From Kosmotogaceae bacterium (lineage in GTDB: Bacteria; Thermotogota; Thermotogae; Petrotogales; Kosmotogaceae): a stretch of DNA of 53,343 nucleotides. This document shows, piece by piece, positions 22,730 through 28,965 of the stretch. The notes below the pieces were generated by a model. The model saw nothing but the letters and a program-made list of their open reading frames with translations, was not told the origin of the DNA and did not search any database. Where the stretch lies: assembly GCA_016933635.1 (NCBI GenBank), contig JAFGAP010000028.1:1-53343 (forward strand). The letters are read 5' to 3'. The position numbers and the translations under genes were made by a program. The number at the start of each line of letters is the position of its first letter. Within the stretch, counting starts at the first letter, position 1.

Positions 22730-24091
22730 ATGCTTGAGATACTTCGAAAAAGAAATACACCTTTTCCTTTTCTATTTTATCTTCTGGCCACCATGCTGGG
22801 AGAGCTAATCATATTTTCTTCAATCTGGATGGAAAGCGGTTGGCTTCCTTTAGCCATTCTCGCTCTTCCCGTAATGCTTATCTCTTCGAAGCAAGTCAGC
22901 CCGTTTGCATGGGTCTTATTCTTTCTTATGGGTTGTCTTGCACAGGTCATCACTTTGAGAATGCCTGATCCTGGAAAAGTCGAGTATGTTGGCTATGTCT
23001 CGAGAGGCGGAACGGGAAGGATCGAAGCAAGTAGTGGTAGACTTCTCAGCGATGGCGAATGGATCTATCTTCCTCTAGCTGTAAATATTGATTTGTCGGA
23101 CAGAAATGCTGTTGCCTTTCCTGGGCAGATCGTATGGTCTGCTGGCAGGCTTGAGAGGAGCGACACGTATCCTTTGATGACAATCGAATCGGAAGCAGAA
23201 GGCTGCATTGATAGATTTGAGATAATTACTTTTCCAGGGAGACATTTCGCCGACCTGCTTACAAAATACGAACTTGACAATACCATTGCCGCTGCAGTGT
23301 TTACTGGTGACAGAAAGCATATCGAATATGAATTGAGGAGAACTATATCTGATCTTGGAATTGCCCATTTGTTCGCTGTTTCTGGTTTGCATATAGGAGT
23401 GATGTATCTTCTAGTTCACAGCTCCCTTTCTTTCCTAATGGTCGGAAGGAATTCTAGAATAATAGCTTCAATTTCCTTGCTTTTTTTGTACACATTGTCT
23501 ACGGGGCCTGCGATCTCTGCTTTGAGAACATTTCTTATGCTTCTATGCTATTCGATATTCAGGATTATCGATTATCGTCAGCATCCGCTGAATATCCTTG
23601 GGCTATCTGGAATGGTAATGGTTATGGTTCAACCATCTATTGTTGCATCGATCTCATTTCAACTGAGCTTCTTTGCTACGGCTGCACTATTGATACTCCT
23701 GCCAGAAATCGAGAATAGAAGCCTCATGTGTCAAGCTTTTCTAGTTGGTGCAATTGCCCAGGCGGCAATTGTTCCTCTTTCTTTGGCCGCATTTGGTACC
23801 CTGTCTCTAGCAGGAATTCCTTTGACTATTCTAATGGTTCCGATGTTCGTGATGCCGTCTTACATAGGCATGATAGCCATACTGGTGTCAGATTTTCTGG
23901 GAATTGAAGGGGTAAGTTACTTCATATCGGGAAGCCTCAGAACAATGTCGAACATAATGGAAAAGGTTACAGCTGCCATTGGAGAAGTGATTCCAGCAAT
24001 ACAATTCGAAGCCTTTCCAGCTTATTTCTTTTCGTTGTTCGTACTATTTTTGTTTTTCATTGCATTTTGGCATTTAGGGCACAAGCCATAG
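22730..24091 (+). CDS. comEC: ComEC/Rec2-type membrane protein, short form
   Basis: Integral membrane protein related to the DNA-uptake channel ComEC, 453 residues. A soluble N-terminal region (about 80-165) resembles the domain that precedes the channel. The channel domain carries the signature GIAHLFAVSGLHIGVMYLL (about 215) and many membrane segments to the C-terminus. The C-terminal metallo-beta-lactamase-like domain of full-length ComEC (700-800 residues) is absent; the gene ends cleanly, so it is a natural short form or has a partner encoded elsewhere. Its last 70 bases overlap the convergent fur gene. Confidence 0.85.
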   Translation: MLEILRKRNTPFPFLFYLLATMLGELIIFSSIWMESGWLPLAILALPVMLISSKQVSPFAWVLFFLMGCLAQVITLRMPDPGKVEYVGYVSRGGTGRIEASSGRLLSDGEWIYLPLAVNIDLSDRNAVAFPGQIVWSAGRLERSDTYPLMTIESEAEGCIDRFEIITFPGRHFADLLTKYELDNTIAAAVFTGDRKHIEYELRRTISDLGIAHLFAVSGLHIGVMYLLVHSSLSFLMVGRNSRIIASISLLFLYTLSTGPAISALRTFLMLLCYSIFRIIDYRQHPLNILGLSGMVMVMVQPSIVASISFQLSFFATAALLILLPEIENRSLMCQAFLVGAIAQAAIVPLSLAAFGTLSLAGIPLTILMVPMFVMPSYIGMIAILVSDFLGIEGVSYFISGSLRTMSNIMEKVTAAIGEVIPAIQFEAFPAYFFSLFVLFLFFIAFWHLGHKP

Positions 24092-24489
24092 AATTTTAGC
24101 TGATGATCATCTATAGTATAACCGGTCCTGGACTTCACAAGCTCTTCAAGTTCCTCCAGGTTGTCTAGGTGAAACTCGACGACTGCGCCACAATTGCTGC
24201 AAATTATGTGATGGTGGTGGTGCTCGCCCTTTTTCACGAGTTCATACCTTACTATTCCGTCTTCAAAAACGATCTTTCTGAGAAGCCCTATATCGGCGAG
24301 TAGCTCAATCGTTCTGTAAACGGTTGCCTTGCTTATTCTGAAGTTCTTTCCCTGAATCTTATGATGAATCTCATCCGCACTTAAGTGTTCTGTACCGGCT
24401 TCAAGGAAAAGTCTGAGAATTAGTTCTCTCTGAGCCGTCATTCTCTGATTTCTTTTTTTCAGTTCTGCCTTGAGCTGATCTTTTCTCAT
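24022..24489 (-). CDS. fur: Fur family metal-dependent repressor
   Basis: DNA-binding regulator of metal uptake or peroxide response (Fur, Zur or PerR type), about 155 residues. The winged helix is at about 5-80 (QRMTAQRELILRLF, ISKATVYRTIELL). The metal region has a histidine run GEHHHHHIICSNCG and two CxxC pairs (C97/C100 and C137/C140), which form the structural zinc site. ATG 24489 is chosen because GGAGG lies 5 bases upstream; a longer frame from 24516 starts before that site. It is the last gene of the rimP-nusA operon. Which metal it senses is not decidable by eye. Confidence 0.9.
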   Translation of the reverse strand: MRKDQLKAELKKRNQRMTAQRELILRLFLEAGTEHLSADEIHHKIQGKNFRISKATVYRTIELLADIGLLRKIVFEDGIVRYELVKKGEHHHHHIICSNCGAVVEFHLDNLEELEELVKSRTGYTIDDHQLKFYGLCPKCQNAMKNKNSTNNEKK

Positions 24490-24515
24490 GACAGCCTCCG
24501 AAAAGCCGAACTTCA

Positions 24516-25544
24516 TTACATAATCGGCTTTATGTCTATCTTCCAGCCAGTTAACTTTGCGGCAAGCCTTGCGTTCTGGCCACCTTTTCCTATTGCAAGG
24601 GAAAGTTGAGTTGGCGAGACAAAGACGGTGGCCTCACGGTTTTCAATATTTGCAACCTTGACTTCAAGAGCTGAAGCAGGCGCGATTGAGTTTCCAACGA
24701 ACTCCGAAGGATTGTCGCTCCACCTTAATATATCAACTTTTTCAGGTTTTATCTCCCTGAGGACTTCAGCTATTCTTGTTCCGCTTTCTCCAATGCAAGC
24801 TCCTACAGGATCGACTTTTGTGTTCTGACTGAATACGGCTACCTTAGTACGAATACCCTCTTCTCTGGCTATAGCCTTTATGGTTACGTCTCCACTAGCT
24901 ATTTCTGGAACCTGAAGCTTCAAGAGTTCTATAACGAAGTCCGGGGTTCGTCTTGTAACGAGTAAGCGTGGTCCTCTAGCTGATTTTGTGACATCAACAA
25001 CGTAGACTTTCATGAAGGAATTGAGTCTTGGTTGTTCTCCGGGGATTAGTTCCTTGGTTGGAATCCTGGTTTCGAGTTTTCCAATTCTCAGATCGATCCA
25101 CTCGGAAGTGACTCTAAGAATCTCAGAAGTTGTCACCGTTCCCTTCATATCGACGTACTTGTCAAAGAGGTTCTCTTTTTCTCTTTCACGTATCTTTTGA
25201 ATAAGAACCTGTCGAGCCGTTTGAGCAGCGATCCTCTTGAATTTCTTAATGTTGAGTTTTCTCTCAACTGTTGAACCGATCTCCGCCGAAGAATCGACCT
25301 TCAAGGCTTCTTCCAGTATGACTTCTAAAGAAGGGTTTTCAACAGCCTCAACCACCAGTAGCCTTTCAAAGACTTCTATGTCGCCTGTAAGCCTGTCGAT
25401 TCTAACATCAACATCGCTTTCGGAGGCGAAGTTCTTCTTATAAGCACTCTGGAGAGCTTTCTCGAGTATGTCTATAACCTCTTCCTTTTCTATATTCTTC
25501 TCATCTTGTAGCTGATCAAGGGCTTCCAAGAGATTGAGATTCAT
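24516..25544 (-). CDS. nusA: Transcription elongation/termination factor NusA
   Basis: RNA polymerase-associated factor that promotes pausing and intrinsic termination and takes part in antitermination. Domain order is the N-terminal polymerase-binding domain (1-125), S1 domain (about 130-195, MKGTVTTSEILRVTSEWIDL), KH1 (about 200-270) and KH2 (about 280-340, LAIGKGGQNARLAAKLTGWKI at the end). It ends there, without the acidic repeats of enterobacterial NusA, as usual in Thermotogota (342 residues). It lies 21 bases after rimP. The leader of this operon contains a terminator, which may allow NusA to limit its own synthesis. Confidence 0.96.
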   Translation of the reverse strand: MNLNLLEALDQLQDEKNIEKEEVIDILEKALQSAYKKNFASESDVDVRIDRLTGDIEVFERLLVVEAVENPSLEVILEEALKVDSSAEIGSTVERKLNIKKFKRIAAQTARQVLIQKIREREKENLFDKYVDMKGTVTTSEILRVTSEWIDLRIGKLETRIPTKELIPGEQPRLNSFMKVYVVDVTKSARGPRLLVTRRTPDFVIELLKLQVPEIASGDVTIKAIAREEGIRTKVAVFSQNTKVDPVGACIGESGTRIAEVLREIKPEKVDILRWSDNPSEFVGNSIAPASALEVKVANIENREATVFVSPTQLSLAIGKGGQNARLAAKLTGWKIDIKPIM

Positions 25545-25565: not shown

Positions 25566-26024
25566 TTATAGTTTTAAATTTGCGCGCCTGACATTTGAAA
25601 AGTGGAATGCTATCTCTTTACCGTTCTCGGAACTCTCAACTGTGATGACGTTGTTTTCGCATGAGATGATCTTCCCAATCAAGACTGAAACGCCTTCAAC
25701 GGGTTCCTTTAGTATCACCTTTGCCTTCTCACCTGTGAATCTTTCGTAATCCTTCAAATCCCTTAGAGCGCGTTCCAGTCCTGGAGACTCTACAACAAGG
25801 TCGTAAGAAAATGGGACGAAGTCCGCTGAATCAAGTGCTCTACCGAAATCGGCCGAGAATGATTCACAGTCGCTTATGGAAACATATCCGTCGAGCTTAT
25901 CGATCGTGATCTTAACAAGCCTCTTCTTACCTCTTCTAGATAGTCCGAGGTCATAGATCGAAAAGCCCAGGTTGCTTGCGACTTCATTTGCCAGTTCGAG
26001 AAGCTCTTTCTTCAGGTCCTCCAC
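25566..26024 (-). CDS. rimP: Ribosome maturation factor RimP
   Basis: Assists 30S subunit assembly. The N-terminal half carries the family motif LVKITIDKLDGYVSISDCESFSADFGRALD and the segment DLVVESPGLERALRDLKDYERFTG; the C-terminal half is the small beta-barrel (VLIGKIISCENNVITVES). GTG 26024 is preferred because GGTGGTG lies 6 bases upstream and an ATG at 26039 falls directly against the terminator T-run with no ribosome site; the ATG cannot be excluded. First gene of rimP-nusA-fur. Confidence 0.9.
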   Translation of the reverse strand: MEDLKKELLELANEVASNLGFSIYDLGLSRRGKKRLVKITIDKLDGYVSISDCESFSADFGRALDSADFVPFSYDLVVESPGLERALRDLKDYERFTGEKAKVILKEPVEGVSVLIGKIISCENNVITVESSENGKEIAFHFSNVRRANLKL

Positions 26025-26040
26025 AAACAACACCACCATA

Positions 26041-26069
26041 ATAAAAAATAGAGGGCAAGTAAGCCCTCT
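26041..26069 (-). terminator. Intrinsic terminator in the rimP-nusA leader
   Basis: On the minus strand AGAGGGC (63-69 of 260xx) pairs with GCCCTCT (50-56) around a 6-base loop, and TATTTTTTATT follows at once. It ends the ABC-2 permease transcript above. It also lies between the strong promoter at 26097-26125 and the rimP start, only a few bases from the latter, so every rimP-nusA transcript must pass it. A second small hairpin (CTCCC/GGGAG, 26068-26080) overlaps its upstream arm by two bases. Confidence 0.85.
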
Positions 26070-26096
26070 CCCTTTGGGAGTATTTCAACTACATTC

Positions 26097-26125
26097 ATTA
26101 TAACTCTTTTGACCCGGTCAGTCAA
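26097..26125 (-). promoter_or_regulatory. Strong promoter of rimP-nusA-fur
   Basis: TTGACT (26120-26125) and a perfect TATAAT (26097-26102) lie exactly 17 bases apart on the minus strand, the best consensus match among the gene-start regions I examined apart from the tRNA promoter. Transcription should start near 26090. This gives a leader of about 50-65 bases containing the terminator hairpin. Confidence 0.8.
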
Positions 26126-26134
26126 CGTTGACCG
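26115..26134. promoter_or_regulatory. Palindrome over the -35 box, operator candidate
   Basis: CGGTCA (26115-26120) and TGACCG (26129-26134) form inverted arms, and within them GTCAACGTTGAC (26121-26132) is a perfect 12-base palindrome that covers the -35 box of the rimP-nusA promoter. Such placement suits a repressor site, but no regulator is identified. It does not resemble a Fur box. Confidence 0.4.
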
Positions 26135-26138
26135 TGAT

Positions 26139-27275
26139 TTAGTCTGCTAGCGAGATGTCCTCCCTGGATGCGATAAACCCGGTTAGAATTATTATTGCAA
26201 CGGCTATCAGAAGATTAGTTGCAGTGGGCAAAACAACCATGGGAAAAGTGAAGTCAAGCATTGATATTCCCTGGAGCACCACAAGGAGGGAGGTAGTTGG
26301 GAGGCTTCGACTGAATGATTCTAGCCAATTGGGGAACATCGAGTGAGGTATCAGGATGCCGCTCAGAATCAAGACAGTTGTGACAAGCGATATTGATGTT
26401 AGTTGTGCGCTCCTTGAAGAATTCAGTATTGTCCCTATTAGAAGTCCTAAAGATGTAAACAGGAGAGTGTACACTTCTAATACTGCCACATAAAGAATCA
26501 GATTCGATGCAATTTCGAGTCCAAAGAACCTTCCGGCTGTAATGAAGATCAGAACCTGCACAGTCGAAAATATCAAAAAACTGACTGCTTTTGCAGTTAT
26601 GTAGTTCAACGATCCCACATTTGAGAGTCGAAGAAGATCGATCGCACCGTTCCTCCTGTCTTCATAGATACCCGTAGCAGCCCCTAATGATGTCATGAAC
26701 ATAATCGTTGTTACCAGTACTATAGGAAAGAGAAGTGAAGAAAAGCTGAGCTTCGACTCGGAGATACCTTCAACTGTGAGAGAGGGTGCCACGTAGTTTG
26801 GATCGATTTCCACGGTCTTCATGAATTCAGGATCTGCCACAACAGGAAGGGCTTTGAACTCTCTCAGAACATTGCTCAAGACCTGATAAACGGCAACTGC
26901 AGTCTGCATTGATCCTGGGTTCGGAATGAAAACCAATTCAGAAGGTTGTTGAAACAGAAGCTTGTTCGCAAATCCTCTGGGGATTATGAAGACCCCGTCG
27001 AGTCTTTCGATGACGGAGTCTATCTCCTCTCTATTCGACAGCTGAATTATGTTCTCTCCCTTTAGCATTGACGTTGCGTACTGCACAAAAAAGAGACCTA
27101 TGAAAGTCTTGTCTTCATTTATTATGCCTATTCTAAGGTCGGAATAACCTCCCGTTTCGGAGGTTATAGAAGATATCGCCGCCAGAATAACTGGCAAAAG
27201 GATAAGCGCAAACAGAAAAGCCCTCGACTTAATAATTAGAAGAAGATCGTTCTTAACAAGTCTAAAGAATCTCAA
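26139..27275 (-). CDS. ABC-2 type transporter permease
   Basis: Membrane subunit of an export-type ABC transporter, 378 residues. One membrane segment lies at about 17-37 (SRAFLFALILLPVILAAISS). A large external domain follows (about 40-170) and five membrane segments from about 180 to the end, the arrangement of NatB/YhaP-like permeases. The motif GAATGIYEDRRNGAIDLLRLS, just before the second membrane half, is characteristic. No ATPase gene adjoins it; the orphan-looking ATPase at 10205 is 16 kb away and may or may not serve it. A strong terminator follows. Confidence 0.85.
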   Translation of the reverse strand: MRFFRLVKNDLLLIIKSRAFLFALILLPVILAAISSITSETGGYSDLRIGIINEDKTFIGLFFVQYATSMLKGENIIQLSNREEIDSVIERLDGVFIIPRGFANKLLFQQPSELVFIPNPGSMQTAVAVYQVLSNVLREFKALPVVADPEFMKTVEIDPNYVAPSLTVEGISESKLSFSSLLFPIVLVTTIMFMTSLGAATGIYEDRRNGAIDLLRLSNVGSLNYITAKAVSFLIFSTVQVLIFITAGRFFGLEIASNLILYVAVLEVYTLLFTSLGLLIGTILNSSRSAQLTSISLVTTVLILSGILIPHSMFPNWLESFSRSLPTTSLLVVLQGISMLDFTFPMVVLPTATNLLIAVAIIILTGFIASREDISLAD

Positions 27276-28892: not shown

Positions 28893-28965
28893 AAGAACAT
28901 CTCGATAACATAATTATACCTATTTTCTTCTTATTAGTCAAGTGTATACTCATAGGAGATTTGTT

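Follow-up and report, generated by a model that had tools for sequence, protein, structure and literature searches.

A rimP-leader attenuator, probably answering to NusA, ahead of rimP in the Mesotoga family and other Thermotogota

The rimP-leader is an attenuator with a GGGc...gCCC terminator and a T-stretch, which most species have before rimP-nusA-infB and which is considered the most ubiquitous attenuator in bacteria (Naville and Gautheret, 2010; PMC2965389). NusA was proposed as its likely regulator, for which repression of the Escherichia coli operon by NusA was cited (PMC2965389). For the nusA leader of Bacillus subtilis, autoregulation of NusA by intrinsic termination is reported (Mondal, 2016, as cited in a 2025 review, PMC12288461). 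The kind of switch dealt with here is therefore not a new one: it is the known and widespread rimP-leader attenuator. The main text of PMC2965389 does not mention the Thermotogota, which may be included in its supplementary species list, and our literature search found no paper joining rimP, nusA, attenuation and Thermotoga.

The locus under study lies on the minus strand of the window, by which is meant the whole analyzed stretch of 53,343 nucleotides from a Kosmotogaceae bacterium. A sigma-70 type promoter (26097–26125) with 11 of 12 consensus matches, consisting of a −35 hexamer TTGACT (26125–26120), a 17-nt spacer and a −10 hexamer TATAAT (26102–26097), is followed by the terminator hairpin AGAGGGC-UUACUU-GCCCUCU (26050–26069), which is GC-rich, has 7 bp and a predicted energy of −12.8 kcal/mol when folded alone, and contains the GGGc...gCCC core of rimP-leaders. 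A single A separates the stem from the U-run UUUUUU of the intrinsic terminator (26043–26048), which is invariant in nine aligned Mesotoga leaders. Transcription is expected to start near 26090, 7 nt past the −10 hexamer. The first-pass annotation of this DNA had reported TTGACT-17-TATAAT, a 7-bp hairpin and a T-run, all of which are indeed present at 26125–26043. It had also argued that expression of the operon depends on readthrough, and this view is borne out by the order of the parts: the promoter precedes the terminator, and since the promoter scan found no promoter-like site between hairpin and rimP, transcripts from TTGACT-17-TATAAT must cross the hairpin. When both strands of the 53-kb window were searched for promoters with at least 10 of 12 matches and a strong terminator within 60 nt, the rimP leader was the one pair found, the chance expectation from Markov-simulated windows being 0.067 per strand or about 0.13 per window. 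The hexamers of the rimP promoter recur, as a further TTGACT-17-TATAAT, at 28913–28941 (minus strand); this copy adjoins the start of an opposite-strand S4-domain ORF and points away from it.

The operon order rimP-nusA-fur given by the earlier reading was confirmed by Pfam, all three genes being on the minus strand. rimP (25566–26024; RimP_N and DUF150_C) encodes a protein 90% identical to RimP of a Mesotoga sp. locus, nusA (24516–25544; 342 amino acids; NusA_N and KH_5) matches the solved NusA 1hh2 and 1l2f over the full length, and fur (24022–24516; FUR) overlaps the last base of the nusA stop codon. The rimP start codon, which the first-pass annotation placed almost directly after the hairpin, is probably GTG 26024 rather than ATG 26039, to which the ORF extends: a predicted ribosome-binding site GGUGGUG (26031–26037), conserved in Mesotoga, is situated 6 nt ahead of GTG 26024, and three further Mesotoga loci (L008–L010) have ATG at the corresponding position. 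A promoter-like ATGTCA-18-TATAAT before nusA (25594–25565), considered as a bypass promoter, was rejected because its TATAAT reads TATGAT in L004 and L005.

In stem motif, position and T-stretch the element agrees with the published rimP-leader. It lies in the leader of an operon with rimP as its first gene and nusA among the others, its stem contains GAGGGC...GCCCUC (26068–26051), ATTTTTT is directly downstream of the stem, and the end of the T-run (26043) is 18 nt from GTG 26024 (3 nt from ATG 26039, if that were the start), the published range being 4–130 nt. The rimP-nusA-infB context, which is outside the motif itself, is not found here: nusA is followed by fur and not by infB. Because motif, position and T-run agree, we file the element as a member of the published rimP-leader family. 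The Rfam model for this leader (RF01770, rimP) had no match in the window's genome; of 14 control genomes it matched that of E. coli alone. Rfam scans at gathering and at permissive thresholds yielded nothing relevant, PhotoRC-I and L20 leader both being far under the cut-off.

The spread of the element was followed in 61 genomes, the sampling reaching from the genus up to the class, and RimP was detected in 57 of them. The exact GAGGGC...GCCCTC hairpin is present upstream of rimP in 42 of the 49 loci read, the window's own locus included; it is lacking in L050 and in the tRNA-Ser group described below. The hairpin was also turned into a covariance model (R1), built from 27 leaders, which match by construction. 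According to a comparison of coordinates, 48 of the 57 Thermotogota genomes with rimP have an R1 match immediately ahead of this gene, and this is usually the best match of the genome. In the other nine (G031, G038, G044, G058, G048, G050, G054, G056, and G060) no R1 match at rimP was found, G031 having a degenerate version of the motif. Within the 27 distinct leaders the GAGGGC/GCCCTC core is invariant and three outer pairs covary; it should be noted that all 27 were chosen for the exact core, so that its invariance is partly the result of selection and the unselected figure is that of the 42 loci or the 48 genomes. A TATAAT-like −10 element is found mostly 25–30 nt ahead of the hairpin. In the Mesotoga family hexamers and spacing are conserved, TTGACT-17-TATAAT being identical in 16 of 17 leaders (L001–L010, L012–L015, L018, and L019). 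The first-pass annotation had proposed conservation of the promoter-hairpin order as a check, and this order is kept in Mesotoga, in its own family and in most other Thermotogota families sampled.

GAGGGC...GCCCTC followed by T is by itself not specific for rimP. Similar terminators occur elsewhere in some genomes, and the core is thus not exclusive to this operon. In the window's genome there is only one other such hairpin (G000:C232:571-598; L056), which is probably an ordinary 3′ terminator because it lies downstream of an apparent ORF end. Six genomes of families f3 and f10, in which the GAGGGC hairpin is lacking, have a gene for tRNA-Ser (GGA) just upstream of rimP (L035:934-1024, L038:1560-1650, L044:1531-1621, L047:870-960, L048:1437-1527, and L049:850-940), and a CCGGGAC...GTCCCGG-like hairpin followed by T lies between the tRNA gene and rimP. 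A different hairpin precedes rimP in the Bacillota locus L053. In genus g3 (L013, L014, and L015) a conserved stretch GGCGTCCCCC...TTTTCCCCTGTCACGGGC...ACAC, in which ARAGORN found no tRNA, lies upstream of the rimP promoter.

The leaders of the Mesotoga family (f1) contain a further hairpin. H1, CUCCC-AAA-GGGAG (26068–26080, minus strand; 5 bp), shares exactly 2 nt (26069–26068) with the 5′ arm of the terminator, as had been noticed in the first reading of the DNA. It is present in 17 of 17 leaders of the family and is paired in all 16 that were aligned. Three of its five pairs are changed on both sides; these changes are common to one genus (g3) and may therefore go back to a single event or a few. 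With a model joining H1 and terminator (R2), one strong-match locus per genome was obtained in all 17 f1 genomes, and it is always the rimP leader, a second match in G002 being the overlapping end of another contig. For the window leader the fold with 7 bp of the terminator and 3 bp of H1 (−16.6) and that with 5 bp of each (−15.8) differ only slightly in energy, so that the two hairpins compete for two base pairs; with an overlap of only 2 nt they can nearly form together. The rimP-leader in its general form shows no antiterminator. In the minimum-energy fold (z-score only −1.9) the 5′ arm of H1 pairs with the rimP ribosome-binding site; translational control by this pairing was set aside because base pairing between an arm rich in pyrimidines and a site rich in purines comes about readily.

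We consider the element, with a probability of about 0.7, to be a rimP-leader transcription attenuator for which NusA is the signal, self-limitation of NusA being by homology the best reading. RNA polymerase would start at about 26090, yield a leader RNA some 48 nt long and then either stop at the hairpin and U-run (26069–26043) or read through into rimP-nusA-fur. More NusA would strengthen termination and result in less nusA mRNA. The part assigned to NusA is taken over from the homologous operons of B. subtilis and E. coli. In the literature, assistance by NusA is proposed for termination at suboptimal hairpins and U-tracts. The Mesotoga hairpin and its T6 give the impression of a rather strong terminator, and terminators of that kind may be independent of NusA.

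An attenuator at the same place could respond to another signal, e.g., to RimP, to NusG or to another RNA-binding protein reading the GGGC...GCCC stem. The core of the stem is conserved in sequence and not only in pairing, which suggests recognition, and it could be kept invariant for a reason other than NusA, such as RimP or another factor. RimP was indeed named as a possible alternative by Naville and Gautheret (PMC2965389), and in B. subtilis NusG is a further stimulator of intrinsic termination. We nevertheless regard a signal other than NusA as unlikely, since autoregulation of NusA through a leader terminator is reported for B. subtilis (PMC12288461) and repression of the operon by NusA is cited for E. 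coli in PMC2965389.

Still less probable is that the hairpin is the terminator of an upstream permease operon and that the rimP promoter merely happens to precede it. The upstream neighbor in the window, which lies outside the element, is an ABC-2 permease gene on the same strand (26139–27275, minus; Pfam ABC2_membrane_3), the ORF of which ends 13 nt ahead of the −35 hexamer, so that readthrough from it would be stopped at the hairpin. The leader terminator may thus also stop permease transcripts. In the Mesotoga locus L003, however, the neighboring gene is a different and divergent one, and the module of promoter, H1, terminator and U-run is nevertheless intact, which indicates that it belongs to rimP rather than to the upstream gene. 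The promoter precedes the hairpin in other families, too, and the hairpin may serve both purposes. The divergent ORF that replaces the permease gene before the rimP promoter in L003 (L003:2-379, minus strand; same as L057) is transposase-like by eye.

A partial terminator that works constitutively and without regulation, serving no more than to fix the basal expression of the operon or to produce a short RNA, is hardly to be expected, for although no antiterminator competing with most of the terminator stem is visible and the overlap with H1 is so short, the deep conservation of the core and the covariation of H1 exceed the apparent needs of a fixed level.

H1, which covaries and is accompanied by a shorter terminator stem, may tune readthrough in the Mesotoga family. 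Judged from the anatomy only, it would compete with the terminator for its two lowest base pairs and thereby keep the terminator suboptimal and thus responsive. Our tentative proposal, which we hold to be possible rather than probable, goes further: the covarying H1 with its 2-nt overlap, gained in the Mesotoga family, would set the boost that NusA gives to termination by branch competition at the base of a shortened stem. An attenuator variant tuned in this way is not described in the papers that we found, and H1 is possibly a new part. In f1 the terminator stem has 7 bp (about −12 kcal/mol) and H1 about −6.6, whereas in the other families the stems have about 9.5 bp (about −16 kcal/mol), a comparable H1 is mostly lacking and the U-runs are interrupted or delayed; this contrast was noticed after the fact. 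The families thus differ in how the terminator is built, with a short stem plus H1 on one side and a long stem plus an interrupted or delayed U-run on the other, and they offer a ready-made comparison by which the features that render a terminator responsive to NusA could be tested. The Thermotogota are often regarded as an early-branching phylum. The rimP-leader can be placed in this phylum, with a stem core conserved in sequence over many families, and this conservation supports an old, protein-read control of the NusA level.

With the published rimP-leader (PMC2965389) the element shares the GGGc...gCCC stem and the T-run between the promoter and rimP of a rimP-nusA operon. It differs in the overlapping H1 that the Mesotoga family adds and in having fur in the place of infB behind nusA. 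The ylxS(rimP)-nusA operon of B. subtilis likewise has a leader terminator before the nusA operon, the negative feedback by NusA being reported there (PMC12288461) and proposed here by homology, but its leader is about 180 nt long (PMC2965389) as compared to about 66 nt to the start codon here. In metY-rimP-nusA-infB of E. coli K-12 the stem motif GGGCTTTAGGCCC plus T7 is found directly before the rimP ATG, whereas a second upstream terminator (CCCCG...CGGGG) and the tRNA gene metY are features of E. coli. R1 reaches E. coli only at E = 2.1, so that the likeness is based on a short motif and on where it lies, not on a significant score. The Thermotogota loci with tRNA-Ser before rimP also resemble E. 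coli, in which the rimP leader comes after a tRNA gene, metY.
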